A stretch of 64,000 bases of DNA from Liquidambar formosana. Taxonomy: Eukaryota; Streptophyta; Magnoliopsida; Saxifragales; Altingiaceae. The position numbers and the translations under genes are program-made. Positions 2,087 to 52,441 of the stretch are shown here, piece by piece. The stretch spans positions 11,369,848 through 11,433,847 of the forward strand of contig CM077820.1 of the NCBI GenBank assembly GCA_039720395.1, read 5' to 3'. Under the pieces are notes generated by a model. It saw only the letters and a program-made list of their open reading frames with translations, had not been told where the DNA came from and made no database searches. The first letter of the stretch is position 1, and every line of letters begins with the position of its first letter.

Positions 2087-4318
2087 TTTTAATATCAGGT
2101 GCACTAGCTTAATGTGACGTAAGTGGTTATTGATGTGACTAATGTTGTTTTTGTCACATTATTAGTTGAACAAAATTAGGGATGTATAACATTGTTCATG
2201 ATCCCTCCATCTATTTTGTACATAAAAAGGATTGCACTTTTGTAGCTTAACCCCTTTTTTTTATATTTTATTTTAATATATATACCAAAAAGGCTTACTA
2301 TTTTTACTAAACAGTTCACAATTATTGAATTATTAAATTCTTTTGAGGATTCGGAACTCAACTCAACTTAACTCAAATAAGACTTAAAATCAATTACATG
2401 GGATCAATTATATGAATCCCTTCTGATATATATCATTATTGGAGGTTAAAAAAAATGAAATAATAATGGTACCTGAATTCCCGCCCAGCCCTTTCTTTTC
2501 TGATCATCTTCACTGTCAGCTTCTACAACATAACCTAAATTGATCCTCCTCATTTTGTTGGGGTCATAAAACGTTTTTGATGCATAGTATTTTCCATAAT
2601 CAATCTGAAACCCAGAACCCAAATGCTCATCCGGATAATCGGGCATCCATTTATCGCTTTCCTGATCATAGGTCCCGAGTGCATAGTAATCATACGCATA
2701 CTTAGTATAATTTTCATCCCCCGCGCTAGCCTTGAGCACATGCTTAATTCCTAGGCCAGTAGCCGAATTATCCAACCCCCTCGACTCGTTCATCGAAATC
2801 GGGTAAATGTCCAAGCATTCCCACATGCCCATTTTTGGGACCTTATATAAGACTCCCTTCCACAAGTAGCTAATGAAATCGGTGGTCTGATAAACAAGAA
2901 AAACACAAGTATGATTAACATTAGCATCCCTCGCCCCAATGGCGACCCGCCATGTTCCATCCGGACCAAGCCATGCTGTGGTCGGGTCACGAAAGTCATC
3001 TTGATCAATTTCACGTGGTGGTTTTATAACCGGATTGTTGTCGTCCTTGTGCCAATCGCAGAGGTTAGGATCGGATAGGTTGTGGGGGTGGGCAAGGTTT
3101 TGTACTTGTGTCCGGTTTTCGGGTTTTTCGGGCTCTATGATTTTTCCGGTGTATAGCATTACGATTTTGCCATCAGGGAGATGGGTTGCGGACCCGGTGT
3201 AGACACCGTCCTTATCAAAAGAGTTATTATTACAGGCCATCGCAAGTGGGAGGTGTTTCCAATGGATAAGGTCCGGTGATACGGCGTGACCCCATGTGAT
3301 GTTGCCCCACTTCGCAGAATCTGGGTTGTATTGATAGAAGAGATGGTACTGCCCCATGTGGAACAATGGACCTACACCAATTCAAACAATACCCTGTGTT
3401 AAAATTCACAATTGACACAATCCAAACACATATTAGATCTCATTACAAAATGACTATATGTGTTTGTATCAGTACCATGCATTGAGTGTTATAGACTTGT
3501 ATCTCATGCATTAGCTTAATGTATACTGTAACTTATCATTGCACATGATACAAGGGCGCTGATGTAACTTATATTAACGCATCTTTACTTGATCGCCATA
3601 TTGTTACATGTATATTATTAAAGTGTATTTTTTTAGTACCATATCGTAAAAGATGGGAACATGACACATACAGGCATGTGTAAACAATGCTCCTACATGT
3701 GTCTTGTGCTTAGGACCGTGATAATCCAAGAATGCAAGATGTCCTGGACCTGTTATTGTTATTAGTAGATATATATATATATATATAGTCCTTCTATTAT
3801 CAAGTGCACCTGATATTAACTAATATCAGGTACACTCCAAAACTATACCTAGTGATTTGTATTTTACGAATCCAACTATTGGATTAGATAGTCTTATCAT
3901 GTAAACGTTCCATGCCAAACATTAAGTTGATCTGAAATTGATTGTTTTTCGATCCAAAATGTGCATTTTTTAATCAATAACAATCGCTCATTTATGAACA
4001 TTTCGAATGAAACAACTCTTAATCTTAGATTAACTTGATTTTTGGCATGCATGATTTACATATGAATCAAATTTAGTCTAATATTTGGTTTGGCCAAATA
4101 CGAGTCGCACATAAGAGTTTTGGAGACACTATATGCAAAATTGCATCAGGTGCATTTGATAATAGAAGGATTGTATATATATAAGATGACGATCAAGTGA
4201 GCATGTGCTGATATAACTTATATCAGCCATCGTATTAAGGATTGTATCTCGTGCATTAGTTGGTTACAAAATTTATTGAGCCAATGCATGGGGTACAACC
4301 GCTAATACACCTAATCAA

Positions 4319-12155: not shown

Positions 12156-14877
12156 TGTCACACCCCATTTTTACACTACCTTACTAGGGCTCACCATTTC
12201 ATGCATGTTTTGTTTTTGAGTCTAGTCACTTGCATTAGTTTTCTAGAGTCACAAGGACAATGGATATGAATTTTGGTTCAAATTGGAGTTGATCTTGAGG
12301 GATAATAAGAGCTTTTGTGACTTGAGGGGCATAATCGTCTTTTAAGTCCCAAACTTTTCATTTGACCTTAGAATGATCTCCAAATTGTCAATTGGAGTTC
12401 ATATGGATGCATAAGAGGTATTTCTAGGATCAATTTGATAAAACAATGGCTCGGGATTAAAATGGCTCAATACAGTTCAAGTTGGTTAATTGACCTTTCT
12501 TTGGGTTAGCTCTAATTGACTCACAATTACCAACCAAATCTTTTCAAATTGACTTTCATTAGTCATCATTTTACCCCCAAAAGTGTTTTATGAAGTTCAA
12601 TTTTGATATGGAAAGTGTTTGGTGTGACCCTATGTGCATGCCTATGCTTAGCAAAGGTAGAAAATAGTGGTTAACCGCCTTGTTTAAACCTAACCATGCC
12701 CCCATGGTTAGTGGTTTTCACCCTAAAATGTTCAAAAACATATTCCTCATCGAAAAACGGTCGTTTTGGCTTTTGTTTCATCAAAATCGGAGTTCATTTG
12801 CCCCCTGAAACACTTCTAGAAGGATTAGGAGTCAAAATAGGGCAAAAATCAGAAGTGGGCTCGGGTGACCACCCAAGCTTGGGCGGCTAGCCGCCTGGGC
12901 CCAGGTGGCTAGCCGCCCAGCCTTGGGTGGTCACCCGAGACCACTTTCCTAATTTCACTCCAACTCTTTGCTGAAGCGGACTTCTTCCTATTTTGACGTA
13001 TTTGGGCTCTTTTGGACGAGTTTCCTTCTAATTTTTGGTAACTTCTGAGTTACTTAAGCCCCAAAGGGATCTCTAATAGCCCTTGGATTAATTTTTAGGG
13101 TTTTAATCCCAGCCATTGGTTAATCCTAATTGAAGTCTATAAATACCCCCCTATGCTTCAGCACAAGGGGAGCCACTTTAGAGCCACTTGATGCCTAAAA
13201 ACCTTAGTGTTAGAGAGAGAATAAGAGAGGGGGACTTGAAGGAGAGCTGGAGTTCTTGCTGTAGCCTTGGAGAACATTGATTCAAGTCATTCATAAGAGC
13301 AAGAGGGAGTTCATACAGCAGCAAGGAAGTTCCTTCCTAAGGTATTCTCCTTCTTTATTCAAGCTTAAACTAGGTTTTCATATAGGATAGGCCTATTGCA
13401 TGTTAAAGGTAACCTTTTTATCATGTATTAACACTCTAGCTAGTTAATATACATGGAATATCTACTGTTTATCTACTGTTTAGCATGCTTTAGGGCTGTC
13501 CTATATGTTTCTAGGCATAGTCATGATTCTTGTGCTCCTGTTTGTCCTTGTGCTAGGATTAGTGTCATTGCATGTTAGAGTTAGGATTTTCATCATGTTA
13601 TATTGCTTTAGTTAGTTAATATGCATGATTTAATTTCTGTTTAGTTTTATTTTAGCATGTTTAGAGTTTATTTGGTGTGTTTTTAAGCATATTGGTGAGT
13701 TTAGGGTTTTAGAGTCTTTGTTTTGTGTTTGTTTTCATATAGCATGATAAAGTAGACTTTTTTATTGGTTTTTCTTCGTGTTTGCTGTATATGTTTTTCA
13801 TATGGAGTAAACATGATAGTTTTGCATGCATGTTAGTATGTTTTAGGGTTTTTTATGCATGATATGGTTCTAGGAATATGTTAGGACTTATTATTGTTCG
13901 CTGTTTTGCTGTTAGCATGCTTAGTGGATGATTTTTAGGCCATGATACTATTCTGTCCAGATTTGCATGTTAGTATTTTTGCATGGTTTTAAGCACTTGT
14001 AAGGGTGCAAATAGGTGTGGTATTTGTCCTATGGCAAATAGGGCTGCTCATGTCTGAAATGGCTAATGCTTGGAGCAATTGCGCTCAGGTAAGCGGGTGT
14101 GAAGGTGCCCCAATTCACCTCTCTTCCTAACTCTTTCTCTTCTCCCTATCTAGGGTTAGTTTTTAATACAAGCCTATGGTTCTAATCAAGGGTTTCCTTA
14201 ACCAATAAAATTCTGGTTTTTATTAAAGTTTCCATTTTGTGGAGTTCCTTCTAAAATCAAACTTTCTATCAATTCTCTTTTGATCGAATAAGGAAACCTA
14301 GGGTTTTAACCATAGGTTTGTATTAGGATTTAACCCTGGTTCTAATCGAACTATGTGGACTTTGATCCATGTATTTCGTTGCATGGTACGTAGGCGCTCT
14401 TCGTGAGGCTCAAGTCCGTCCTAGGATCCAAGCATCCTAGGTTTATTTTTGTTTTGTTTTCTCTTTCTTTATTTTCTGTTTTGTTTGTTTATCATGCATG
14501 GATGGATGAATGAAATATATGATATGCATGCAATTCTTGTGATGATATACTTGCTGGTTTTTGTATGGAAAGACTTTAATTTAGCCCAAATGAACTGAGA
14601 GACCGAAAGGGTGACATGGGTGCCTATAGGCTTTGCCTAGAACCTTCCCATGTCATAACTTAGCCTCCGAATCCCCGATTTCTTTGGTTTCCAAAAGACT
14701 GGTTTTTGCCTTTCCTTTTTTATGGAGTCATTCAAATTGTTTTCCTAAAACAAACTATTTTTAGGGTTTTCCTTGTTTCCTTTAAAAAATAAGGTGGCGA
14801 CTCCTTTTTCTCTTTCAAACCCCCCATCTAATCTCTCTTTCGCCAATCCCTCGTGGGCCCAATTTCCGGGGTTCACA
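12156..14877 (+). mobile_element. Solo LTR, 2.7 kb, related to the Ogre/TAT-like element
   Basis: It begins TGTCACACCCC and ends GGGGTTCACA and is flanked by TATAC (12,151-12,155 and 14,878-14,882). It matches the LTRs at 22,817-25,314 and 30,928-33,425 throughout but is clearly more diverged. It has TATAAATA at 13,138-13,145 and an 80-bp palindrome at 12,860-12,939. It sits inside the Helitron. Confidence 0.92.
12860..12939. repeat. 80-bp near-perfect GC-rich palindrome in LTR U3
   Basis: It starts CTCGGGTGACCACCC and ends with its inverse GGGTGGTCACCCGAG. Each arm is 40 nt with about two mismatches and one G/T pair. It stands out from the AT-rich LTR. Less perfect versions lie at 23,527-23,606 and 31,638-31,717, all about 200 nt or more upstream of the LTR TATA box. 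Confidence 0.9.
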
Positions 14878-22398: not shown

Positions 22399-22816
22399 AT
22401 GGGTAAATTGCACTTAAGGGTCTAGAGTTTGAGGTAGGTTTTGTAACACCCTCGTCATTAAATTAGTTTAATTATGTCATTAACTGGTAATTTGTCGGTT
22501 TATGAATTGCATGTGCGGTACATGTGACCTTTGGACCACTTTTGATGATGCATGATGTGTGGGTTATTGTCATTTTGCATCATGCACATGTTGGAATGAG
22601 CATAGATAGCATTCGAACACGTTTTGGCTCGTTACTGCGCTTTTCTGATTTGGTTCGATCGATTGAGCCTTGAGGCCGATCGATCGGAGGTACTCAGGAT
22701 AAACCTGTTGGTTTCTGCCATGGTCCGATCGATCGGGCCCTCAAACCACGATCGATCGGGCATCACAGATTTTGCAATTTTTTTTTTATTTGCATCAAAT
22801 GACGCATGTGCTCCTC

Positions 22817-25314
22817 TGTCACACCCCATTTTTGCACCACCTTACTAGGGCTCATCATTTCATACATGTTATTGTTTTGTTTTTGAGTCTAGTCACTTGC
22901 ATTAGCTTTTTAGAGTCACAAGGACAATGGATATGAATTTTGGTTCAATTTGGAGTTGATCTTGAGGGATAATAAGAGCTTTTGTGACTTAAAGGGCATA
23001 ATCATCTTTTAAGTCCCAAACTTTTCATTTAACCTTGAAATGATCTCCAAATTGTCAATTGGAGTTCATATGGATGCATATGAGGTATTTCTAGGTTCAA
23101 TTTGATGAATCAATGGCTCAGGATTAAAATGGCTCGATGTAGTTCAAGTTGGTTAATTGACCATTCTTTGGGTTAGCTTAAATTGACTCACAATTACCAA
23201 CCAAATATTTTCAATTTGACTTTAATTAGTCATCATTTTATCCCTAAAAGTGTTTTAGAAAGTTTAATTTTGGTTTGGAAAACATTTGGTTCAATCCTAT
23301 GTGCATACCTATGCTTTGCAAAGGTAGAGCATAGCGGTTAACCGCCTTTGTCAAACCTAACCATGCCCCCATGATTAGTGATTTTCACCCTAAAATGTTC
23401 AAAAATGTATCCCTCATCGAAACACGATCGTTTTGGCTTTCGTTTCATCAAAATCGGAGTTGATTTGACCCCTAAAACACTCTTAGAAGCAAAAGATGTC
23501 AAAAAAAGTCAAAAAACTGAAGTGGGCTCGGGTGACCACCCAAGCCCGGGAGGCTAGCCGCCCAGCCCCTGGTGGCTAGCCACCCAAGGCCTGGTGGTCA
23601 CCCGAGGCCACTTACCTATTTTTGCTGAAACGGGATTCCTTCCCTATTTTGACAGCTTAGGACTCTTTTGGACGACTTTCCTTCTAATTTTTGGTAACTT
23701 TTGAGTTTCTTAAGCACCAAGGGAGTCTCTAATAACCCTTGGATTAAATTTTAGGGTTTTAATCCTAGCCATTGATTTATCCTAATTAAACTCTATAAAT
23801 ACCCCCCTTATGCTTCAGCACTAGAGGAGGGAATTGGAGGCCACTTTATGCATTAAACCTGAGTGTTTAAGAGAGAATAAGAGAGAGAGAGCTAAAAGAG
23901 AGTTGGAGTTCCTGCTGTAGCCTTGAAGAAGCTTGATTCAAGTCATCCACAAGTCAAGAAGAGAGTCTCTACAGCAGCAAGGAAGCTTTTTCTAAGGTAA
24001 AACTCCCTTCTATTCAAGCTTAAACTAGGGTTTCTTATAGAATAGGTCTATTGCATGCTAAAGTTGAGTTTTTTATCATGTGTTATTACTTTAGTTAGTT
24101 AATAAACATGGTTTAAATATTGTTCATTATGAGTTATGCATGCTTTATGGTTATTTTATAGGTTTTAATGCAAGTTTGTGAGTTTAGGGTTTCTATTGTC
24201 CTTGTTTTAGGTTAGTTGCATATAGCATGTTAAAGTAGGCTTTTTTATTGGTTTTTCTTCATGGTTGTTATATGTATGATATATATAGAATAACTATGAT
24301 GTTTTCTCTATGCATTTAGTGGATTTTAGGGTTTTTATGCATGTCTTAGTGTTAGGATTGCATTAAGTTCTAGTTTTATTCACTGTTTATGTTATTTGCA
24401 TGATTAGTGGATAAATTTAGGCTTTGACACTATTCTGTCCAGATTGCTATTTCTTTCTTTTTGTCTTGTTTCGAGCACGTGTAAGGGTGCAAACAGGTGT
24501 GATAATCGTCCTATTATACATAGGGCTGTTATTGCTTAAGCTTGCTATTTGCTTGGAGTAATTGCCTAAGGTAAGTGGGTTTGAAGGTGCCCTAATTCAC
24601 CTTTTTCTATCTCTAACTCTTTCTCTTCTCCCTCCTTAGGGTTAATTTTTAATATGAACACATGGTAATCACCAAAGGTTTCCTTGCTAAATAAAATACT
24701 GATTTTCTATCAAAGTTTCCATCTTGTGGAAGTTTTTCCTAAAACTCAAACTTGGTTTATTTAATTCAAATAAGAAAACCTAGGGTTTTAACCATAGGTT
24801 TATATTAGGATTTAACCCTAATTCTAATCGAACTACGTGGACTTTGATCCATGTATTTCGCTACATGGTACGTAGGCGCTTTGAGGTTCAAGTCCGCCCT
24901 AGGATCTAAGTATCCTAGTTTTGTTTTGTTTACTTTGTTTTTGTTTGTTTATTATGGATCGAATATATGATATGCATGCAATTCTTGTGATGATATACTT
25001 GCTGATTTTTGTATGGTAAGACTTTAATTTAGCCCAAATAAACTAAGAGACCGAAAGGGTGACATGGGTGCCTATAGGCTTTGCCTAGAACCTTCCCATG
25101 TCATAACTTAGCCTCCGAATCCCCGATTTCTTCGGTTTCCAAAAGACCATTTTTGCCTTTCCTTTTTAAACATGGAGTCTTTTTAATTGTTTTCTTAAAA
25201 CAAAGTGTTTTTAGGGTTTTCCTTGTTTCCTTTAAAAAATAAGGTGGCGACTCCTTTTCTTTTTCAAACTTATTTTCTTTTCAATCTGTGTGGGCCCAAT
25301 TTCTGGGGTTCACA
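22817..25314 (+). repeat. 5' LTR of the Ogre/TAT-like element
   Basis: TGTCACACCCC...GGGGTTCACA. TATAAATA at 23,794-23,801 is the likely promoter. The GC-rich inverted repeat at 23,527-23,606 lies upstream of it. Confidence 0.92.
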
Positions 25315-25317
25315 GTT

Positions 25318-25335
25318 TGGCGACTCCACTGGGGA
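25318..25335 (+). promoter_or_regulatory. Primer binding site (tRNA-Arg type)
   Basis: TGGCGACTCCACTGGGGA starts 3 nt after the 5' LTR. It would pair with a tRNA 3' end in TCGCCA, as reported for tRNA-Arg primed Ogre elements. No tRNA sequence was available for comparison. Confidence 0.75.
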
Positions 25336-25877
25336 TTTGTGGGCTAGACTCTATAAAGTTTAATTGGGCTAAATTAATTTCTTTTGTTTAATTAAAATCA
25401 ATCACATTGCATCCGCTTGATTGTGTGCTTTCATTTATTGCATTGTGTGCGCAAACTCTTGCATGTTAGGATCGATGTCCCTCGATGTATCCTTGCCACT
25501 GATGGGCCTAGCCTCAACCTTGGTTTTCCTGATTCCATGTGTTGGGGTGAAAGCTATCAACCTCTCTTGCCAAGTACCCTTGGGCTTGCCCTTGGGTATA
25601 TTAAATGAGCTAATCACGTACTGCTGGACCCACGCGGCGTTCCTGATGCCACATGTGGTTAGGTATAAAGATAGTTCAAGCAAGTGAAGGACCCCAGCCT
25701 ACCCTTATCATTAGTCCATGTAGACAGACTTGTAAGGCACTATTGGTTCACCATTATGCACCCACACTTGATTGTAATGATATCATGCCGTGCTTGTGTT
25801 GTGTTGCTATGCTCATAAGTTGTGTTCTAGGCTTAGGTTTATTTTAACCATGCGTAATGATTGACGCTTGATATATG

Positions 25878-26312
25878 GTCTCACCTACATACCCTTAATA
25901 AGTACTTCCACTCTTTACTCAAGGGGCTCCCTAAAAGAGGGATGCACTAATTAAAGGTATGTAAGCTAAGACCATTTAATCATAGGCTTTTAAATGAACC
26001 AATAGGGGCTTGTTTGGAGTGAAGTGTTTAATTAAGAGTTAAGAAGTTGGGGCTTACTCATCTTTATGTCCTTAGTATGTCACCTCACCTTCCGTCTTAA
26101 GGGACACTTTTGAGGATGAGGTGTCTAACTAAGGAGATATCCTGTTTAGACCTAGCTCATAGTTTGCCTACACTTGGGGGAAAGTGACTCTTGATGGTTT
26201 TGTGATGGTTAATAACCAGAACCTAAGGTTAAGTGACTCAGCTTCATGCCCTTAGTACGTCACCTCACACTTCAAGGTACCCTTGGAGATGAGATGTCTA
26301 ACTAAGGGGATG
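25878..26312 (+). repeat. Three long stem-loops in the leader of the Ogre/TAT-like element
   Basis: Stem 1 (about 25,878-25,972) pairs GGTCT with AGACC and TACATACCCTTAAT with ATTAAAGGTATGTA. Stem 2 (26,069-26,134) pairs TCCTTAGT with ACTAAGGA and CACCTCA with TGAGGTG around a 4x4 internal loop. Stem 3 (26,249-26,308) has the same layout with CCCTTAGT and ACTAAGGG. They lie between the primer site and the gag remnant. Confidence 0.75.
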
Positions 26313-26453
26313 CTTTATAAGATCACACTTACCAATTTAGCGCAATCATGGAAATATTGTTAAAATGTTTTCGTCATAGCCTAAAAAGGGAATTTTGTTC
26401 TTGAAGGAGGGCTGGATTAAACTTGTGATATCTTCTGGAGGTTAAAGATTAGA

Positions 26454-27197
26454 GTGGAACCCATTATCACTTTCATGGCTGGAGTTGGCCATACGACATT
26501 GGAAGAAATTAGGGAAATGCTTTGTGAGATCATGCAAAAGTTGAATAATATCTTGGCAATTGTTCAAGTTGTTCCTAAAGCCCAATCCGAGTCTATGAAT
26601 CATCATGAGTCTAATTCAGGGGCTATCGAGTCCAAGAGATACAACAGAGCAGATTTGAAGGCCTAAACTGTAAGGAAAGAGCCTCGCCAATTTACTGAAC
26701 TCTACATGCCATTGAACCATGCTTTTTCGAGAGTAGCGATTTTGGGCTTATTGTCACCTCTTGATCCAAAACCCCTTCCTAATCCTTTGCTTCGTCGGTT
26801 TAAGGAAAATGAATATTGTGCTTTTCATCAGAGCAGGGGACACGACACCAATCATTGTTATAGACTACGACATGAGATCCAAGACCTCATTGACCGTGGA
26901 GTAATCAATTTTTCCACACCAACCAATAATCCAAATATTCTTCAAAGCTCTTCCATGAACCCATTTTTGGCCACCGTAAACCCAATCTCTCCAACCCAGC
27001 CATATGCCAATCCACCGAGATCCCTTGCCGCAATTAAGCAAGAATTTCCAATTCATGGCCCATATCATTCAGAGGATACTCAAACTCTTGCTAGCATGGG
27101 GGTTCTTGATTTTGAGGGACTTTATGAGGCTCAAGGAACCTTTGACACTCATAGGGATTTGGATAATGTTGGCAGCGCAAGTCAAGATGAAGAATAA
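26454..27197 (+). pseudogene. Gag fragment of the Ogre/TAT-like element
   Basis: A single frame is interrupted by TAA at 26,664-26,666. After the stop comes RQFTELYMPLNHAFSRV, then a zinc-finger region CAFHQSRGHDTNHCYRLRHE followed by IQDLIDRGVI, the layout of Ogre/TAT Gag proteins. The capsid-like N-terminal part is missing and no protease follows; the frame ends at 27,197. It may still be expressed as a roughly 160-residue piece from 26,706. It could supply RNA binding, but most likely it is relic coding sequence. Confidence 0.75.
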
Positions 27198-28030
27198 GAA
27201 TGTTTAATTCACAAGGAAAGGATGCTGATGCCTTGAGGTTGTTGAGAAAGATAATAAGTTTTTTCTTAGTGCTTACTGCTACACTAATTCTATCATGACT
27301 GTCCGTGATAAGGAGTTTAAGTTTTTTGTTTGTTTTCTAGTTAGTTAATTTTTGTTGATTTCTTCGAGTCAAATGTCCTTTGAAGTTTGGAGTCTTTTGA
27401 GTCCTAGTCATTGTCAATGTGTTCATCTTCATCCCCTCAATAAAAAGTTTGATTTCAATAATTCCATTGTCTCTCTATTTCTCTTCTCCTCAATCAATTG
27501 ACAATCAAAGTGGCATTAAAATATTTCCTAAGAAGCTCGAAAGCTCTTCCCACTAAAAGAGCAAACATAATGAATGATGAATGAGCTGCAATTGATTAAC
27601 TTAGAAACAATGAGAAGTCCAAAATGGTAAACACAGGGGCCACCCGCCCACTACACTACATGAAGACCTAGGCCAAGCAACTTGAGAAGATCTTGAAACC
27701 CTTGTAAGAAGCAATTCAGAGATCAAAAGAAGAAATCAATTAGCATGGTGAGCTTTTGAAGATGTTTATTTCCCTCTCCCTCAAAAGACAAAAAAAAAAA
27801 AAAAAAAGTCAAAAGAAAAAAAAATTGTGAAAAAAAAAAAAAGAAAAAAGAAAAAAAAGAGCACAAAAAAGAAAAAAAGTACAAAAAGAAAGGGAAGGGA
27901 TTAACATACATCCAACAGCATTTAGAAGGAAAATCGATCAGAAGAAGGCCTTGTGTTCAAAGAAGACGACCCGCGGGAAAGGTTCAAGCCAAATGAGGGT
28001 GGTCCCTATGTGGTTATGTGTAGAGCCTAG
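27198..28030 (+). other. Non-coding interior with A-rich tracts
   Basis: There are no coherent reading frames. A/G-rich runs lie at 27,785-27,900. No pol similarity is seen. Confidence 0.6.
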
Positions 28031-28979
28031 GCCCGCTAGGTTGAAAACCTGAAAAGGCGACCTAGGCAAAAGTTAGGGCATTTAAAAAAATGATGAGTGA
28101 ATCTTTTGAACTACGAAGACCTGATTCTCCACCAAAAAAAGAAATGTTTGTTTTGTAAATGTCTTGTGAAGATCAATGTGGAGATACGTAGGCAGCCCAT
28201 AAAGTTACTTTGGGTGCGGTCCAATTCATTGAAAAAAAAAAAAAAGAAAAGAAAAAAAGAAAGAGGCTTTACATATAACCAACCATTGAAGGCAATTCTT
28301 TGTGACTAAGTTAAGAAGAAACGGTCTTATTCATCAAATTAGTGAGCTAAAATACTACATGCCACCAAGAAAGCTCATTTAATTATTCTTCTTGTTCTTG
28401 TTTGGTTTGAGTCCTTCGGATGTCCCTCCATTTACCTCTTTCGCTTCTCTTGAGTCTTGTGTATTTCTAGTGGTCATAGACCTCGTCCTTTGAAAGTATT
28501 CAGTTATGATGATTCATTTGTGGGTTCTATCAACTTCTATATCTTCTTACCTTTTGACTTAGACTCTTGTCATGGATTTAATGATGGAAAAGGGGTAGCA
28601 GTAACCATTATGAAACGATTTGCCTTAGCTATAGGCATGTGATTTCGTGAGATTGGGGCTAATTTATTTTGTTCAATTGAAAAATGTGAATGTGTTATGA
28701 ACCCAGGGGCTGATTATGCTTGTTGAAGAAGAATTTGAATGAATCCTGGGGCTGGTTTATCTTGTTCGGAGAACTTAAATGAATTGGTGAAGAGAATGGG
28801 CTAGGGCTTCATGATTTGAATTTCTTTGCGCTAATGAGAAAACAAAGAAAAAGAAAAAAAAGAAAGGAAAAGAAGAAGAGCCCGCTAGGTTGAAAGCCTG
28901 AAAAGGCGAGCTAGGCAAAAATTAGGGCAACCCGCTAGGTTGAAAACCCGTAAGGGCAATCTAGGCAAAAGTTAGGGTT
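28031..28979 (+). repeat. Three copies of a 50-nt structured module with GNRA-type loops
   Basis: Copies lie at 28,031-28,080, 28,880-28,929 and 28,930-28,979, each CCCGCTAGGTTGAAA... to GGCAAAAGTTAGGG. All can fold an outer CTAG/CTAG stem, a GGTT-GAA-AACC hairpin and a second hairpin: CCT-GAAA-AGG in copies 1 and 2, CCC-GTAA-GGG in copy 3. Confidence 0.8.
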
Positions 28980-29504
28980 TTGAAAAAAGAAGTGAAGAAA
29001 GAAGAAGAGAAGAAGAGGTGATTCCACTCCATTCCTATACCTTGAAAAAGAATTCATGGGTTTGATCCGATCCTCCTAAATTGCATTGTTTCCTAAGAAG
29101 GCTCGACCACCATTTTATAAACAAAGAAAAAATGTTTTTGAAAATTCCATGATTGTGCTAAGTATGTAAAGGGGTCTTTAAAGAAAAAGAATGATAGGTT
29201 TGCAAAACCACTTCCAGTAAATCTTTCTGTGCAAGGCTTTGAACTTGTGCTGATCCATATGAATCAATTTTACTCGAGCTGATTGATTAGTTGATATGCA
29301 TGCATTAGTGACATGTAGTGCTCATTATATTTCAAGGTCCATTTTCCCATGACCATATTTGCTTAAGTTTTCGCCATTGGGTTACACCCAAGTAGCCTTA
29401 TGAGTGATATTCATTCTTCATGTGGTATTGGCTTTGTCCTCATGCTAACCTTGTTTTATGAGTAGTGACTCCTACTTAACTAATGTTTTGTTAAGCTCCC
29501 CTAT

Positions 29505-30770
29505 GAGTATTTACCTATACTCTTTTTCTTGAGCATTGACCTTTGCTCATTTGGAATATTAACTATTATTCATCCTCAGTGTTGACCTTCACTCATTTAG
29601 AGTATTCACTCATAGCCCTCTCTTGAGCATTGACCCTTGCTCGTATGATTTTCTTTGTGAGTATTGAATCCTACTCATTTCAAGCATTGACATTTGCTTA
29701 TATACATTTTATCTTGAGCATTGACCCTTGCTTGAGTGATTTTCTCTGTGAGTATTGAATCCTACTCATTTCAAGCATTGACATTTGCTTATATACATTT
29801 TATCTTGAGCATTGACCCTTGCTCGAGTGATTTTCTCTGTGAGAATTGAATCCTACTCATTTCAAGCATTGACCTTTGCTTATATACATTTTATCTTGAG
29901 CATTGACCCTTGCTCGAGTGATTTTCTTTGTGAGTATTGAATCCTACTCATTTCAAGCATTGACCTTTGCTTATATACATTTTATCTTGAGTATTTGACC
30001 CTTGCTCGAGTGATTTTCTCTGTGAGTATTGAATCTTACTCATTTCAAGCATTGACCATTGCTTATATACATTTTATCTTGAGCATTGACCCTTGCTCGT
30101 AGGATTTTCTCTATGAGTATTGAATCCTACTCATTTCAAGCATTGACCCTTGCTCATAAAATTTTCTTTGTGAGTATTGATCTTTACTCATAGCAAGCAT
30201 TGACCCGTGCTTATGTGTTTTTCTCTATAAGTATTGATTTCTATTCATGAGATTTCTTTTTAGATTTTCAGTATGGATATTGATTTCTATCCATCACTGG
30301 TTCTCGTTTGAGTAATGAACCTTACCCATACGATGTCTTATTGGCTCTCCTGAGTATTGACCTATACTCATTTTAAGTATTGATACATACTCATCTTAGG
30401 TATTGACCCATACTTACCCTGAGTATTGTCACATATTCATCTTGAGTATTGACCTATACTCACCCTATGTATTGACCCATACTCATTCTAATCATTAAAG
30501 CATATTTGTCCCGAGTATTGACTGGTACTCACCCTAAGTGTTGACCTTCACTCTGATTCCTTTTGAGTATTGACGGGTACTCACTCCGAGTGTTGACCTC
30601 CACTCATATTTATCCCTACTCCTTTCGAGTATTGACTGTTACTCACCCTGAGTGTTGACCTTCACTCCCAATACTGATCTTTATTCTCTTCGAGTATTGA
30701 CTTGTACTCATCCTAGGTGTTGACCTTCACTTAGAGTTACCTCTACCTGTCCTGGGTATTGACCTTTACC
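29505..30770 (+). repeat. Array of about 30 covarying 18-nt hairpin units
   Basis: Each unit is a 5-nt arm, an 8-nt loop of the TTGACCYW type and the complementary arm. Examples: GAGCA/TGCTC (29,531-29,548), GAATA/TATTC (29,554-29,571), GAGTA/TACTC (29,659-29,676), AAGCA/TGCTT (29,682-29,699), GAGTA/TACTC (30,352-30,369), GAGTG/CACTC (30,650-30,667) and the longer ATGGATA/TATCCAT (30,273-30,294). From about 29,620 to 30,170 the units are arranged in a higher-order repeat of roughly 100 nt. Confidence 0.88.
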
Positions 30771-30927
30771 TAGACATTGACTTCTAATTGCTTAAGATAT
30801 GTGATGAATTCTATAGGATAATGGAGTTCCCCATTTGAACTTGATGCAATTACTCTCCCAAGCAAAAATGGGATGTTCTTTTATCATTGGTTCGCAAGTG
30901 AAACTTGCTGCACCAATGAGGGGCTTC

Positions 30928-33425
30928 TGTCACACCCCATTTTTGCACCACCTTACTAGGGCTCATCATTTCATACATGTTATTGTTTTGTTTTTGAGTC
31001 TAGTCACTTGCATTAGCTTTTTAGAGTCATAAGGACAATGGATATGAATTTTGGTTCAATTTGGAGTTGATCTTGAGGGATAATAAGAGCTTTTGTGACT
31101 TAAAGGGCATAATCATCTTTTGAGTCCCAAACTTTTCATTTAACCTTGAAATGATCTCCAAATTGTCAATTGGAGTTCATATGGATGCATATGAGGTATT
31201 TCTAGGTTCAATTTGATGAATCAATGGCTCAGGATTAAAATGGCTCGATGTAGTTCAAGTTGGTTAATTGACCATTCTTTGGGTTAGCTTAAATTGACTC
31301 ACAATTACCAACCAAATATTTTCAATTTGACTTTAATTAGTCATCATTTTATCCCTAAAAGTGTTTTAGAAAGTTTAATTTTGGTTTGGAAAACATTTGG
31401 TTCAATCCTATGTGCATACCTATGCTTTGCAAAGGTAGAGCATAGCGGTTAACCGCCTTTGTCAAACCTAACCATGCCCCCATGATTAGTGGTTTTCACC
31501 CTAAAATGTTCAAAAATGTATCCCTCATCGAAACACGATCGTTTTGGCTTTCGTTTCATCAAAATCGGAGTTGATTTGACCCCTAAAACACTCTTAGAAG
31601 CAAAAGATGTCAAAAAAAGTCAAAAAACTGAAGTGGGCTCGGGTGACCACCCAAGCCCGGGAGGCTAGCCGCCCAGCCCCTGGTGGCTAGCCACCCAAGG
31701 CCTGGTGGTCACCCGAGGCCACTTACCTATTTTTGCTGAAACGGGATTCCTTCCCTATTTTGACGGCTCAGGACTCTTTTGGACGACTTTCCTTCTAATT
31801 TTTGGTAACTTTTGAGTTTCTTAAGCACCAAGGGAGTCTCTAATAACCCTTGGATTAAATTTTAGGGTTTTAATCCTAGCCATTGATTTATCCTAATTAA
31901 ACTCTATAAATACCCCCCTTATGCTTCAGCACTAGAGGAGGGAATTGGAAGCCACTTTATGCATTAAACCTGAGTGTTTGAGAGAGAATAAGAGAGAGAG
32001 AGCTAAAGGAGAGTTGGAGTTCCTGCTGTAGCCTTGAAGAAGCTTGATTCAAGTCATCCACAAGTCAAGAAGAGAGTCTCTACAGCAGCAAGGAAGCTTT
32101 TTCTAAGGTAAAACTCCCTTCTATTCAAGCTTAAACTAGGGTTTCTTATAGAATAGGTCTATTGCATGCTAAAGTTGAGTTTTTTATCATGTGTTATTAC
32201 TTTAGTTAGTTAATAAACATGGTTTAAATATTGTTCATTATGAGTTATGCATGCTTTAGGGTTATTTTATAGGTTTTAATGCAAGTTTGTGAGTTTAGGG
32301 TTTCTGTTGTCCTTGTTTTAGGTTAGTTGCATATAGCATGTTAAAGTAGGCTTTTTTATTGGTTTTTCTTCATGGTTGTTATATGTATGATATATATAGA
32401 ATAACTATGACGTTTTCTCCATGCATTTAGTGGATTTTAGGGTTTTTATGCATGTCTTAGTGTTAGGATTGCATTAAGTTCTAGTTTTATTCACTGTTTA
32501 TGTTATTTGCATGATTAGTGGATAAATTTAGGCTTTGATACTATTCTGTCCAGATTGCTATTTCTTTCTTTTTGTCTTGTTTCGAGCACGTGTAAGGGTG
32601 CAAACAGGTGTGATAATCGTCCTATTATACATAGGGCTGTTATTGCTTAAGCTTGCTATTTGCTTGGAGTAATTGCCTAAGGTAAGTGGGTTTGAAGGTG
32701 CCCTAATTCACCTTTTTCTATCTCTAACTCTTTCTCTTCTCCCTCCTTAGGGTTAATTTTTAATATGAACACATGGTAATCACCAAAGGTTTCCTTGCTA
32801 AATAAAATACTGATTTTCTATCAAAGTTTCCATTTTGTGGAAGTTTTTCCTAAAACTCAAACTTGGTTTATTTAATTCAAATAAGGAAACCTAGGGTTTT
32901 AACCATAGGTTTATATTAGGATTTAACCCTAATTCTAATCGAACTACGTGGACTTTGATCCATGTATTTCGCTACATAGTACGTAGGCGCTTTGAGGTTC
33001 AAGTCCGCCCTAGGATCTAAGTATCCTAGTTTTGTTTTGTTTACTTTGTTTTTGTTTGTTTATTATGGATCGAATATATGATATGCATGCAATTCTTGTG
33101 ATGATATACTTGCTGATTTTTGTATGGTAAGACTTTAATTTAGCCCAAATAAACTAAGAGACCGAAAGGGTGACATGGGTGCCTATAGGCTTTGCCTAGA
33201 ACCTTCCCATGTCATAACTTAGCCTCCGAATCCCCGATTTCTTCGGTTTCCAAAAGACCATTTTTGCCTTTCCTTTTTAAACATGGAGTCTTTTTAATTG
33301 TTTTCTTAAAACAAAGTGTTTTTAGGGTTTTCCTTGTTTCCTTTAAAAAATAAGGTGGCGACCCCTTTTCTTTTTCAAACCTATTTTCTTTTCAATCTGT
33401 GTGGGCCCAATTTCTGGGGTTCACA
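30928..33425 (+). repeat. 3' LTR of the Ogre/TAT-like element
   Basis: It has the same length as the 5' LTR, with TATAAATA at 31,905-31,912 and the inverted repeat at 31,638-31,717. Differences from the 5' LTR are mostly transitions. Confidence 0.92.
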
Positions 33426-34864
33426 CTCCTCACGCCTTTTAAAACCCACCAAGCACGATTTTTACACTCTCATTGCTGCACTTTGAAGACCAAGAAAGAG
33501 AGAGAAGGAGAGAGAGGGAGGAGAAAGAGAGAGAGAGGATAGAGAAAGGGAGTGTTTAGAGAGAAAAAACCACATTTTTCTCTTACATGCATGGGTTTTT
33601 CACTCTCTCAGCTCACTTTAATGCTTTGGGAAGCTTCCTAAGGGCTGGGTTCATCTTCTACCACATGTGGGTTGTAGATCAAGCTTAATTCATCTTCTAC
33701 CACATGTGGGGTGTATTATCATGTTTATTTTGTAATGCATGTACTGAGGGGTCTAATTTACATAACCCTATAATTACGAATATCACATTTTAGAGTATAT
33801 GGGTTAATATACATGTGATATATTGGTATATTTTGGATGTACATGCTATGTAAATTCCTGTTGGTTTATATTTTACATGCTTTATATAGCCTAACATGTT
33901 ATATAATTGTGGAATAATTCCATATATGACTGATTTGGGGTTTGGTAGATATGCATATGAATTTATATGCTCATTCATGACATTCATTGGTATGTAATGC
34001 ATGAAATGAAATTATTAAATACTGGGTAAAAGTATTAAAAGGTCCTTGGAGTTGAACTACTGCGGTCATGGGACATCTTGCTGTGTTTTTCACTCCATTG
34101 ATCCTGGGGTACTGCGGTCCTAGTTAAGGACGTCGTGCTGTATTTCCGAATAGAGGCTACTGCGATCCCAAGTAGGGATGTCGTGCTGTGTTGCCCTCTT
34201 GGAGGTTGGGTTTAAATCTTCCGTTTTCGCGCGAAGATTCTTGTGGGAGTGATTGGTTGGTAATTATGAGAACAATTAAATATACATGAGTCACATATCA
34301 TTCATGGAATTTTATTATGTCTAAGCATTATTTATTTTGGATATATTATCATGCTTTGGTTAATTTCATATGAAAATTATATCTACTGAGTTTTATACTC
34401 ACTCCTATATTTTATAACTCTTTTAAGATGAGTTCTTAGTTGGGGAGACCTCGTCATGAGATGTCATTAAATCTTGGGACTTACACTATTGTCAGATCAT
34501 CATGGACATTATTATGATTTTGAACAATTTTATAATCATGGTTATGTATTAATTAACACTTTTGTATTCGGCCAATAGGCACTAGACATGTAATAACCGA
34601 TGTTTTGTAATATTTTAATTTCGTAGGTCTCTTTATATGATTTATCTAGCATGTGATGATACTAATGATGGATGATAGGGAATTTTATGATCATTTTACA
34701 TAGGTTTTATTATGGTATGTTCCATTTACGAATGGGTCACGCCGAAATTTTGTTTGAAATTACAGGTTTTCTAACATGTGTCAGCTACGTGCTTCTTAAA
34801 TGATTTTCTTAATTAAAATGGTTTTATTATTTTGATTACGGCTTAATTATTTTGGGTCGTGACA
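33426..34864 (+). other. Continuation of the interrupted solo LTR
   Basis: Non-coding. A purine-rich GAGAGA stretch lies at 33,487-33,565, and near-repeats TACTGCGGTC, TACTGCGGTCC and TACTGCGATCC lie around 34,056-34,150. No gene is seen. Confidence 0.55.
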
Positions 34865-38167: not shown

Positions 38168-40441
38168 ATGGAGCCTGTCAAACTTTCAATACCATATTTT
38201 AATGGTCAAGATTATGGGTACTGGAAGGCTCTTATGCGAGCATATCTCAAATCAATTGATGAGAGAGTGTGGCTTGCTGTGATTGATGGATATACTCCAC
38301 CCAAGGTGGTTGTGGAAGGTGTATCTATTGACAAGCCTAAAGTTCAATGGACTAAAGAAGATTATGAAGGACTTAAATAGAATTCCAAAGGAATCACTGC
38401 TATTTTCAGTGGAATATCCCGAGATGAATTTCGAAGGGTAGCCCATTGTGAATATGCAAAAGAGGCTTGGAATATCCTTGAGAAAACTCATGAAGGTACC
38501 ATATCTGTTAAAAACACTAAAATTCAAATGTTTACTGCTTTGTATGAACAAGAGACTATGAAAGAGAATGAAGTGTTTGATGAGTTTAATGCAAGATTGA
38601 GTGATATTGTCAATTCTAGGTTTTCCTTAGGTGATGTTATGTCTGATGCTACAATCAATAGGAAAATTCTTAGATCTTTGCCAATTAGGTTTCTTCCTAA
38701 GATTACTTCCATTGAAGATAATAAAGATTTAGATACCATGAAAAAGGAAGACTTGGTTGGTGAAATTCAGAATTATGAGATGAAGTTTTGCAAACCTAAG
38801 AAAGAACCTAAGAACATTGGAATTGCCTTGAGTACTGTGAGTGAGAGGTCTAGAAGATATGATTATAGGACTAATTCTGAATTTGATATTTCTGAGGAGG
38901 ACATTGCCTACTTTGTTAAAAAATTTAAGAAATTTTTCAGAAATCCTAGAGGTAGTGTTTCTAATTCTAGAAATAGTAATGGTGCTAGCTCTAGTAGGAA
39001 CAATGAATCTAACTCTAACAAAGGTAGTGGTTCTAGTTCCTATAAGGATAGGAGGGATAGAAATAGGTCTAGATCTCAGTTTAGAACTCAGGGGGAGAGA
39101 CCAAATGATATGAATGATGAGAGAGATAAAATTCAATGTTATGAATGTCATGGTTTCGGTCATATTGCTCTTGAATGTGCTAATACTAAGAAGAAACAAA
39201 GTAGTGATCAGAATAATGGAAAGGGATATAATGCTACTTTGAGTGACAGTGAGACTGAGTTGGATTCTGAGGATTCCTCTCAAGGAGAAGAGGATAACTC
39301 CAATTTCATGGCCTTTACTTCTATTCATCAGGTTAATGATAAAATCTCATCAAGTGTTATTGATTCTGAGAGTCAGGGGGAGTCTGAAAAAGATGAGATT
39401 AATTCCGAAAATTCTGAAAATATGATTGAATCTGATGAAGAAGAAGAAGACCTTCAATTAGCTTATGACAAGTTGTTTGAAGAATGTCTAAAAACCAAAA
39501 AGGTTAATAAATCCCTATACATTAAGGTTAAAACTTTTGAAAAAGAGATAGAGACTTTAAGGATGGAATTGTCTGAATCTAAGGGTTATGAGAGTCAGTT
39601 GAGCACTCAAAAAGCACTTCTTGCTAATGAGGTGGTTCGACTTGAAAAGGAGAAGTTTGAATTGTCTGAGTCTAAGAAAAGTCTTGAGTTGGAAGTAGTA
39701 AATATTGAGAAAGACTTGAAGACTAAGATAGGAGATCTTGAGAAAATGTTAAAAGGTAAAGAGACCTTAGACAAGTTGTTAGGTGTAGGACAGAATTCTA
39801 GTGATAGGCGTGGTTTAGGTTTTGTTAGTGATAGGGTTACTCCTAGTTCACCTAAAACCATGTTTGTCAAGGCTCAAGAGTCTCAAATGATTAAGTCTAT
39901 CATTCCTCCTCCTATTGTGCCTTCAAAGCGAGTCCCTATTTGTGTTCATTGTGGCTTGAAAGGACATATTTGACCTAGATGCCCAGTCTTTAGGGAGAAT
40001 CAAGAGTTACCTAGGAAGAATCCACCTAGGAAGGTAGATAGTGACTTCCATAGGCAAGTGAAGAGGTCTAATGGATATGATATTCCTTATTTTCGGAATA
40101 GATCCTCTTCTAGAAGTACTCTTGTGTGTCATCATTGTGGTAAGATGGGTCACATTCGTCCTAACTGTTTTCATCTTAGGAATGGTTCTTCTAGGACTTC
40201 TAGAAATCCTATCTTAAGTTGGGACAATGTAAGTGATTGTCTTAGGAAGTTATGTCAAGAGGTTGTTGATTTGAGACAAATTGCCCATAAAGGATTAGGC
40301 ACTTCTTCTTGTAATCCTGTGAGTGATTCTATACCAGTTGTGAGTTTTCCTAGAGAGAAATTCATTGCTAGGAAAGAATGGGTGAAGAAAAAGGATTCTG
40401 ATTGTCTTACCCCACTTGTTAGTGTTGTGCAAAAGGATTAG
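38168..40441 (+). pseudogene. Gag polyprotein with three zinc knuckles, two in-frame stops
   Basis: A single frame of about 757 codons starts MEPVKLSIPYFNGQDYGYW, like the DUF4219/UBN2 start of Copia Gag. It has a Ser/Arg-rich region, knuckle 1 CYECHGFGHIALEC (about 39,137-39,178), acidic stretches, a predicted coiled coil (about 39,440-39,770), knuckle 2 CVHCGLKGHI cut by a stop, and knuckle 3 CHHCGKMGHIRPNC (about 40,128-40,169). Stops are TAG at 38,378-38,380 and TGA at 39,971-39,973. The TGA stands where knuckle 3 has Arg, so CGA-to-TGA is likely. Gag would package RNA. Protease, integrase and RT are absent. Confidence 0.85.
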
Positions 40442-44006: not shown

Positions 44007-44918
44007 CTTGCCACCAACTAATTAGTCCAAATTTTCAGACGCCGAGGATTCGAGGAACGCGATCACACGCGGGATATTTGACAAACTGCAAGCCACCTGA
44101 ACTAGTCGCTTCATCACCCTTCTATTATTATTCAGTCTTCTCTGTCCCTCCAATCTCTACTGCCCACTGGGGCCTCGGTGGCTAGCATGCAGTAAGGTTT
44201 TAGCTTGCGTTACACATAATTTACTTTGAAAAACATTATAATATAAACTAAACAAAGAGGGAAAATTCAATTTAATAGTTTTGTTTTGGGGATTTGCTTG
44301 ATTCAACACTTTGAGTCCACGGCGAAATGCATTTCTAATTATAGTGCGTACGTCGTCAACAAAAAGACTGGTACGGTGTTTACGTAGCAAATAGCAACGA
44401 CTAATTAGTGTCAATGAAAATGGTAAATTGAGAAGAAATCAAAATAAAAAATAAAGCATTTCGGGGAGCCTAGCTCCTTAATTGGACTCTTGGAGGTTCA
44501 CATCCTGTCCAGTTGTTTACCCACCAGTTCTCAATAACCATTGGATGGGTGCATTTGATAATATATGAAAATGTCACATTCCCACTCTTTTTTATTATTT
44601 ATTTTATTTTAGGAAAATGTTATAGTAATTGGTTTCATATGTCAATTTGTTTGTTAACTGATGTGTTAATGATAAGATTGTAATTAATCAAAATGTAAGT
44701 TTATTTTTTTTTTATTATTTTAAAGTGGATGTTATATTAGGACTCGTTTGGATAAGCTTCTACTTCTTGTTTATTATGCATGCGGTTAAAATGACTCTTC
44801 CATTTAAAGCAATTGATGTGTTTGAAATATACATATTGGTTCAGAACGAGGGACATAAATTTTATATGCAAATTTTGATATGATATGATTATTAAAACAT
44901 TCGATCTTGCAAAATCCA
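44004..44918. other. Intergenic DNA upstream of copy 2
   Basis: Bases 44,004-44,664 match the region upstream of copy 1 without the solo LTR. From 44,665 the sequence is unique and AT-rich. No gene is seen. Confidence 0.6.
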
Positions 44919-45800
44919 TAAGGGTGCATTTGATATGTGAAAATTAATGGAATCTCACTTTTTTTCTTTTTGGGCAAATTACATATTAATGTCACGAATT
45001 TTACCATGAATTTCAATGTGATGCATAAATTATTAATTTTTCCAATTTAATGTACAATTTATTAATAAGTGTTTCAATATTGGTTAATATGAGACGACCA
45101 TTTAAATCTATAATAGGAGCCCCACGTGAGCACTGTTATAAGGGTGCATTTGATATGTGAAAATGGAATCTCACTTTTTTCTTTTTGGGAAAATTACATA
45201 TTAATATCATGAATTTTACCATGAATTTCAATGTGATGCATAAATTATTAATTTGTCCAATTTAATGTACAATTTATTAATAAGTGTTTCAATGTCGGTT
45301 AATATGAGGCGATCATTTAAATCTATAAAAAGACCCCACGTGTGCACGCTCCTGTTCTAAGGGTGCATTTGATATGTGAAAATTGAATCTCACTTTTTCT
45401 TTTTGGGCAAATTACATATTAATGTCACGAATTTTACCATGAATTTCAATGTGATGCATAAATTATTAATTTTTCCAATTTAATGTACAATTTATTAATA
45501 AGTGTTTCAATGTCGGTTAATATGAGACGACCATTTAAATCTATAACAGGAGCCCCACGTGTGTTTAAGTAGGGCTCCTATTATAAGGGTGCATTTGATA
45601 TGTGAAAATGGAATCTTACTTTTTTCTTTTTGGGAAAATTACATATTAATGTCACGAATTTTACCATGAATTTCAATGTGATACATAAATTATTAATTTG
45701 TCCAATTTAATGCATGATTTATTAATAAGTTTTTCAATGTCGGTTAATATGAGACGACCATTTAAATCTATAATAGGAGCCCCAAGTGTGCTCATGTGAA
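44919..45800. repeat. Four tandem repeats of about 220 bp, with an inverted partner
   Basis: Units start AAGGGTGCATTTGATATGTG near 44,919, 45,139, 45,359 and 45,584. All contain TTTTGGGNAAATTACATATTAATNTCACGAA-like sequence and end in AGGAGCCCCACGTG. Segment 45,880-46,030 is an inverted, diverged copy. Confidence 0.88.
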
Positions 45801-51700: not shown

Positions 51701-52441
51701 CTTCTCCGGGTAATCAGGTACCATTCATCGTTTTCCCGATCGTAGGTCCCTAGTGCATAGTAATCATACGCGTGCGTCGCATCATTTTTATCCCCTGAGC
51801 CTTGAGCACATGCTTAATTCCTGGGCTAGTGGCCGAATTATCCAACCCGCCCGACTCAATCATTGAAATCGGGTAACGTCTAAGCATTCCCGGCCACATG
51901 CCCAATCCTCGGACCTCATGTAAGATCCTCTTCAACAAGTAGCTAATGAAATCCGTGGTTTGATAAACAAGAAAAACACACGTATCATCATCATTATGGT
52001 ACTTTGCCCCGATGGCGACCTGCCATGTTCCATCCGGTCCAAGCCATGCTGTTGTCGGGTCACGAAAATCATCCTGATCAATTTCGGGTGGTGGTTTCAA
52101 AACCGGGTTGCCCTCATACTTGAACCAATCGCAGAGGGCAGGATCGGATAGGTTGGCAGGGTAGGCAAGGTTTTGTACTTGTTTTTGGTTTTTGGATTTC
52201 CCGGGCTTTCCAATTTTCCCGGTGTATAGCATTACAATTCGGCCATCGGGGAGATGGGTTGCGTAGCCGATGTAGACACTGTCCTTATCAGACGAGTTAC
52301 CACGAGCCATCGCAAGCGGAAGGTGGTACCAGTGGATCAGGTCCATTGATATGGCGTGACCCCATGTGATGTCGCCCCAAACAGAAAAATTCGGATTGTA
52401 TTGATAAAATAGATGGTACCACCCCATGTGGAACAATGGAC

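Follow-up and report, generated by a model that had tools for sequence, protein, structure and literature searches.

A young LTR retrotransposon within the window (the whole stretch of 64,000 nucleotides analysed here) carries an array of short hairpins between its apparently gag-only internal region and its polypurine tract (PPT), and hairpin arrays of different spelling occupy the same place in related subfamilies of the same genome. Position and hairpin form thus persist while the letters change, which points to a structure or a structure-making process rather than to a bound sequence. The reading that we favour, with some reserve, is that the array is a hypervariable tandem repeat in the 3'UTR of a non-autonomous element, probably of Tat lineage, and that its hairpin units may be made and kept by template switching of reverse transcriptase (RT).

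The host element comprises the following features:

22,817-33,425, LTR retrotransposon, whole element (two 2.5 kb LTRs around an internal region)
22817..25314, + strand, 5' LTR with TG...CA ends (self-BLAST and flanks)
25318..25335, + strand, putative primer binding site (PBS) TGGCGACTCCACTGGGGA, immediately past the 5' LTR
26667..27197, + strand, gag-like ORF, 176 aa stop to stop (ORF list; homologues)
30885..30918, + strand, pre-PPT hairpin CATTGGT..GCAAGT-GAA-ACTTGC..ACCAATG, adjoining the PPT
30918..30927, + strand, PPT GAGGGGCTTC, adjoining the 3' LTR
30928..33425, + strand, 3' LTR (self-BLAST), adjoining the PPT

The element is young, its LTRs being 99.3% identical (99.28% over 2500 bp in self-BLAST; 18 of 2,500 positions differ, 17 of them by transitions), and a short target-site repeat, CTCCTC, flanks it at 22811-22816 and 33426-33431. 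The PBS-like stretch right after the 5' LTR starts with TGG and may match tRNA-Arg. Based on the available part of a survey, the PBS kinds of non-chromoviruses are mainly those for Ala, Arg, Asp, Lys and Trp tRNA (PMC6317226). The gag-like ORF is the sole listed ORF of at least 120 aa within the internal region; it contains a CAFH...GHDTNHC motif recognized by eye, has no Pfam match, and has homologues (P0001-P0031) that include Camellia and Rhododendron proteins. Among ten internal ORFs scanned, none had any match above the curated Pfam cut-off, be it to pol or to copia gag. The element thus appears to be pol-less, as the first-pass annotation had proposed, and gag-only. It is probably a non-autonomous, Tat-lineage Ty3/gypsy LTR retrotransposon. 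The gag query found no match in viral contigs, and the PBS query none in viral or genome contigs. One gag homologue, P0006, is a plant-like fragment recorded under the bacterium Modestobacter lapidis and is a probable plant contamination.

Several other features were noted in the window. The A-rich internal region of the element contains 50-bp repeats (CCCGCTAGGTTGAAA...) at 28031-28080 and 28881-28977. Elsewhere, two minus-strand ORFs (2446-3366 and 51750-52436) clearly exceed the cut-off for Pfam Glyco_hydro_32N; they are of the GH32 invertase type and may represent a duplicated invertase locus. A plus-strand ORF (38528-39973) has a copia-type gag match that, at 26.1 bits, falls slightly short of the Pfam cut-off of 27. 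Tandem repeats occur at 44918-45790 (227 bp, 3.9 copies) and at 61900-62119 (48 bp, 4.7 copies, with the inverted-repeat string AACAGTTTACTGTT).

The array of the element, referred to as type 1, is made up as follows:

29460..30773, + strand, hairpin array of 46 units in one orientation (pattern match, loop and spacing)
29621..30180, + strand, 91-bp higher-order repeat, 6.1 copies, three hairpins each (GAGCA/TGCTC, GAGTA/TACTC, AAGCA/TGCTT)
30348..30546, + strand, 23-bp hairpin repeat, 8.7 copies (tandem-repeat detection)
30558..30731, + strand, 65-bp repeat, 2.7 copies, bearing GAGTA/TACTC and GAGTG/CACTC hairpins

Each 18-nt unit consists of a 5-nt arm, an 8-nt loop of the TTGACCNN type and a second 5-nt arm. 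A search of both strands of the 64-kb window with GAGTATTGACCNNTACTC, allowing up to three mismatches, returned 35 matches, all of them inside the array (29,460-30,771), where 0.36 were expected; the array is therefore real and above chance. It had been described as some 30 units starting at 29505, an estimate that grows to about 46 units, chosen by loop or spacing, with a start at 29,460. Full 5/5 pairing is found in 35 of the 46 units if G.U is allowed and in 28 by Watson-Crick pairs alone. Plus-strand TTGA sites of the window that lie outside the array have a full 5-bp stem in only 5 of 482 cases, and none of the six TTGA sites on the minus strand of the array is paired. Hairpins with arms of at least 5 nt number 33 in the array versus 5.6 in shuffles; in four further stretches of the internal region and one of an LTR, counts are close to or lower than chance. 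The array is a nested tandem duplication, so that many units are copies of one another. Its lying between the gag region and the PPT and 3' LTR bears out the placement at the 3' end of the element. Single units are modest in stability (median -5.8 kcal/mol per 24 nt), and 220-nt pieces of the array have folding z values between -1.5 and -4.8 on the sense strand and between -1.6 and -4.1 on the opposite one. The unit pattern had one match each in at least 80 loci of viral contigs, which we took as chance, and an ORF of the array used as protein query had no match.

Do the arms of the hairpins change together? Pairing was compared with shuffles for 44 of the 46 units (35 of them distinct). Two-sided changes are present at all five pairs, including the second (GC in 2 of 35 distinct units), which the first-pass annotation had set apart as a possible exception. 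Paired cells amount to 92.0% versus 81.8% after shuffling, a value reached in none of 500 shuffles, and fall to 31-48% when the arms are slid. A tree-based test, for which we used our own script modelled on R-scape, put the two innermost pairs first and second among 276 column pairs, with E values of 0.20 and 0.28; collapsing the 91-bp repeats changed these to 0.31 and 0.07. No pair is significant over all 276, and arithmetic on the E values gives significance only when testing is confined to the five predicted pairs. On the window-only tree, Watson-Crick to Watson-Crick changes on the same branch number 5 versus 0.77 expected (P=0.003) under a null conserving every column's changes, and single steps lead to G.U 7 times and to A.C 8 times, both as expected. 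The evidence for concerted change rests on a thin tree, because same-branch double changes drop to 0.0 once sister copies are added (78 recurrent units).

Sister copies were collected from the 718 Mb host plant genome with the stretch after the array, pre-PPT hairpin included, as query. Among 1,412 candidates, 40 scored places at 97-100% identity yielded 30 loci, the window's own counted, and all 30 have a type-1 array. Turnover of the array is considerable, as 12 copies range from 666 to 1,832 bp and from 11 to 43 full hairpins. In 29 loci, 920 of 1,099 upstream TTGA[^G] sites are fully paired, and the exact unit pattern with pair 4 left free has 1,737 matches genome-wide versus 1 in the reversed control. 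With copies pooled (78 recurrent distinct units), predicted pairs 4, 5, 1 and 2 are the top four of 153 column pairs (E 0.017, 0.77, 2.0 and 3.9) and pair 3 ranks 12. Only pair 4 falls below E 0.05 (E 0.0167, 153 tests), and over all column pairs of the window alone no pair does. The earlier claim of covariation beyond plain duplication is supported by two-sided changes at all five pairs and by these top ranks. Covariation of the type-1 array is real, but it is borne by old differences between unit types.

One near-duplicate locus, L148, was left out of the type-1 orthologue, covariation and wobble-null counts. It and L147 (G000:C1:32590348 and 32599855 for L147 and L148) have nearly identical arrays and lie about 9.5 kb apart, as if element plus LTR had been tandemly duplicated; some gag places are likewise paired, 8-9.6 kb apart.

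Orthologous units tell of drift. In 22 such units followed across 29 loci, 23 of the steps off Watson-Crick pairs lead to G.U, 22 to A.C and 9 to other combinations; nine single steps regain a pair (six from A.C, three from G.U), and no Watson-Crick to Watson-Crick double change was found. Pair-breaking changes are not depleted, occurring at or above the null rate, and the difference between G.U and A.C equals the null (P=0.55). Shared and singleton variants stand at 27:23 in arms, 39:37 in spacers (P=0.86) and 43:23 in loops (P=0.25 versus arms). Arms are slightly less variable than spacers (P=0.06 for shared variants, 0.04 for singletons), a difference that looks mutational. The loop, earlier called constant, has a nearly constant TTGA core, but its last four bases are the richest in shared variants. 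At the G/T pair near 30,420 that had been read as an intermediate, 24 of 29 loci have A-T, and G.U comes out as derived. Current selection for pairing is not supported in the type-1 array, contrary to the suggestion that RNA selection now keeps its arms matched: among orthologous units, on a short time scale, arms drift unmatched, an outcome that the first-pass annotation had itself named as refuting its idea. Paired changes are older and separate one type of unit from another.

Related subfamilies have arrays of their own. One of them is represented in the window by a single feature:

12157..14877, + strand, solo LTR with TATAC on both flanks, of a sister subfamily whose PPT-bearing copies have a type-2 array

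This LTR is 84% and 80% identical to that of the element in two pieces. The PPT was seen in 11 of 30 loci of the sister subfamily, and 10 of these 11 have a type-2 array at the same pre-PPT place, the exception being L183. Type-2 stems are 9-10 bp long with G.U allowed and enclose a loop near ATCACTT; examples are GGTATACTC/GAGTATACT, GGTGTACTC/GAGTACACT, GGTATGTTT/AAACATACT and AAATATATTC/GAATATATTT. Among matches to the loop chosen blind to the arms, 226 of 412 are paired 8/8 versus 0 of 211 in LTR background (10 loci). The eight predicted pairs rank 1, 2, 7, 8, 18, 58, 64 and 200 of 351; one has E=0.0067 (0.04 under the column null; 351 tests) and the others lie above 0.05. L183 was left out of the loop-match, covariation and wobble-null counts, and the look-alikes L167 and L168 were both kept in the former two.

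A third type was reached via gag at 77-78% identity. Gag positions served to place six loci (L193-L198): at L193 and L194 the array was reached, and at L195-L198 the placement missed the site, so that these four were left out of array-presence counts. Type-3 hairpins are wobble-rich and bulged, with a GCA loop and stems such as CACCAGT/ACTGGTG and CATCGAAC/GTTCGATG. At both loci the number of perfect hairpins is no higher than the shuffle maximum (14 versus mean 7.2, maximum 14; 7 versus mean 3.5, maximum 7); the mean sense-strand folding z of 200-nt pieces is -3.5 and -5.8. Antisense open frames without Pfam match lie downstream of a gag relative (68%) at L198 (G000:C1:23612900-23613900); by eye they resemble a plant mobile domain ORF. 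Such an ORF is a feature of Ogre elements.

The genome has 2,685 exact copies of the PPT-LTR junction CCAATGAGGGGCTTCTGTCACACC, versus 0 for the control, and a hairpin array is present at each of the first four junctions listed, which were chosen by list order alone. Three are of type 2 and one is a type-3 relative; the loops of this relative are GAA and TGTC, and it has ACCAGT-TGTC-ACTGGT next to GCCAGT-TGTC-ACTGGC. Hairpins at the four junctions number 9, 10, 8 and 6 versus shuffle means of 1.8, 1.2, 1.8 and 1.7, the last (L202) only equalling the best of 60 shuffles. Homologous elements thus do have hairpin arrays at the same place, as had been asked of related elements; they are those of related subfamilies in the same genome, in other letters. 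By BLAST, type 1 has no significant similarity to type 2 or type 3 (best E 1.6). A string common to types 1 and 2, TATACTCATC..TTGAGTAT, was matched by eye, and the two types may have a common origin.

The hairpin adjoining the PPT is shared by all types. It was found in 11 of 11 type-2 and 2 of 2 type-3 loci and in 29 of 30 type-1 loci (-8.1 to -13.9 kcal/mol), the type-1 figure being biased because the query that selected these loci contained it. Its inner stem is ACAAGT..ACTTGT in 11 of 13 type-2 and type-3 loci versus GCAAGT-GAA-ACTTGC in type 1, which is a paired difference.

Types 2 and 3 were also inspected for a preference for the sense strand. Distinct type-2 arm pairs include 28 G.U v 16 A.C (P=0.096). 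In type-2 orthologues, L168 and L183 left out, Watson-Crick pairs went to G.U 18 times and to A.C 6 times (P=0.02), counts that mix mutation with unit swaps, including 7 two-sided Watson-Crick changes; several of the A.C-to-Watson-Crick rows are root artefacts. Against the tree null the sense-strand wobble bias has P=0.057-0.087, and pair-breaking changes are not significantly depleted. Sense/antisense folding z values at four related loci are -6.1/-4.6, -7.0/-4.4, -6.4/-4.3 and -6.0/-3.4, where control stretches differ between strands by at most 0.8 in either direction; only z was used, because raw folding energy favours the sense strand in controls too. In type 3, a hand count of 11 distinct units gave 12 G.U v 4 A.C (P=0.08), with one position common to most of the units. 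The weak lean of type 2 toward the sense strand is suggestive of RNA-level selection but no proof of it.

How might such arrays arise and persist? During minus-strand synthesis, RT would copy the PPT and then immediately encounter the structured RNA of the array. Stalling and template switching at this place could give rise to duplicated units and to arms copied from their partners; the array would renew and replace itself as hairpins, and single units would drift freely between such events. It is tempting to speculate, and this is the most speculative step, that stalling also benefits the element by favouring formation of the PPT primer. Template switching is our best reading in that it would jointly explain how hairpins arise, why their arms match, and why units are tandemly duplicated and drift freely, and it is favoured because hairpin arrays recur at one place and vary in unit number. 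In the available sections of a study on other genes, template switching can create hairpins and help to maintain them, the upkeep of short stems being less clear according to its authors (PMC8794818). An inverted loop, a possible footprint of template switching, was found at none of the six minus-strand TTGA sites; as far as the same sections go, inverted loops are rare there as well (PMC8794818). In addition to template switching, the arrays could be under selection for RT braking or packaging.

It is possible, albeit not probable, that selection acts on the hairpins as RNA structure of the sense strand, for Gag binding, packaging, dimerisation or RT control. Stems and loops are exchanged under a lasting architecture, predicted pairs lead covariation (ranks 1-4 and 12 of 153 in type 1; 1, 2, 7 and 8 of 351 in type 2), and the type-2 arrays have their lower z on the sense strand and their excess of steps to G.U over A.C (18 v 6). 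However, four of the eight type-2 pairs rank only 18-200, loops differ among subfamilies such that no common ligand is evident, and type 1 has neither strand bias (23:22) nor depletion of pair-breaking changes nor a shared-to-singleton ratio in arms that differs from spacers. Template switching is preferred over RNA selection because the matched arms of type 1 lack strand bias and constraint, although per-unit selection in type 1 might be too weak to see since some 40 units are redundant. We consider it rather unlikely that the array is a renewable cis element of LTR retrotransposons, defined by structure and sequence-agnostic, made of RNA hairpins before the PPT, which would brake RT, aid plus-strand priming and be rebuilt by template switching.

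Plain tandem duplication of a few founder palindromes followed by neutral drift, with covariation as mere founder history, is improbable. It would agree with the nested 91-, 23- and 65-bp repeats, the unmatched drift of orthologous arms and the small number of independent paired changes on trees, but not with two-sided changes at all five pairs or with the four strongest of 153 column pairs all being predicted ones; moreover, some cause is needed for sister subfamilies to have palindromic arrays of different spelling at this position.

The W-box has the sequence TTGACY. Very improbable are DNA-level dyad sites for a host regulator, either W-box enhancers or Sirevirus-like palindromes, for although TTGACC or TTGACT occurs in many type-1 loops and Sireviruses, in the accessible text on them, have 8 to 32 palindromic repeats per element (PMC2829016), the commonest type-2 and type-3 loops (ATCACTT, ATCGCTT, GTGACCT, GCA, GAA/TGTC) are without TTGAC, the arms vary jointly as a fixed half-site would not need, and the array sits outside the LTR. 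The W-box reading was rejected on account of these sister-subfamily loops.

The closest parallel to the array is found in the hypervariable 3'UTR tandem repeats of Tat, Ogre and Retand elements, which were reportedly the subject of a 2009 study by Macas et al. In the portions available of two later papers, such repeats form tandem arrays located between coding region and 3' LTR, with family-specific sequence and variable length (PMC7004042; PMC11963269). Likewise, the array studied here lies between gag and the 3' LTR, its length varying by copy and its sequence by subfamily. Here, however, the unit is a hairpin, and several arrays of different spelling share this architecture. Neither PMC11963269 nor PMC7004042 uses the word "hairpin" in its main text, and no report of hairpin-unit arrays in Tat-type elements was found in the literature searched, an absence that is no proof. 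As far as the same portions go, origin and function of Tat-type 3'UTR repeats are termed unknown (PMC11963269), strand transfer is a published hypothesis of their origin, and they feed plant satellite DNA (PMC7004042).

Sireviruses, based on the accessible text, resemble the present case in having many short palindromes (8-32 copies) in one plant LTR retrotransposon and an inverted repeat at the PPT (PMC2829016). Theirs are mostly short-spacer CGG-CCG dyads in Ty1/copia elements, located in the LTRs and before ENV and read as DNA regulatory sites (PMC2829016). By contrast, the stems described here are 5-10 bp long with loops of 3-8 nt and lie beside the PPT of a gag-only, probably Ty3/gypsy element, and the CGG-CCG core is absent from 44 aligned units. 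Template-switch hairpins, in the sections available, share with ours that both stem sides are changed and the loop is retained, but were described in rRNA and microRNA genes and not in a retrotransposon array (PMC8794818). Our best reading of the window array is thus that of a known kind of hypervariable Tat-type 3'UTR repeat, with hairpins as its units. If the units of Tat-type 3'UTR repeats are hairpins renewed at the PPT, this would offer a concrete, testable mechanism for the repeats arising there, and covariation without sense-strand bias would provide a clean case in which RNA selection is separated from a mutational process that imitates it.
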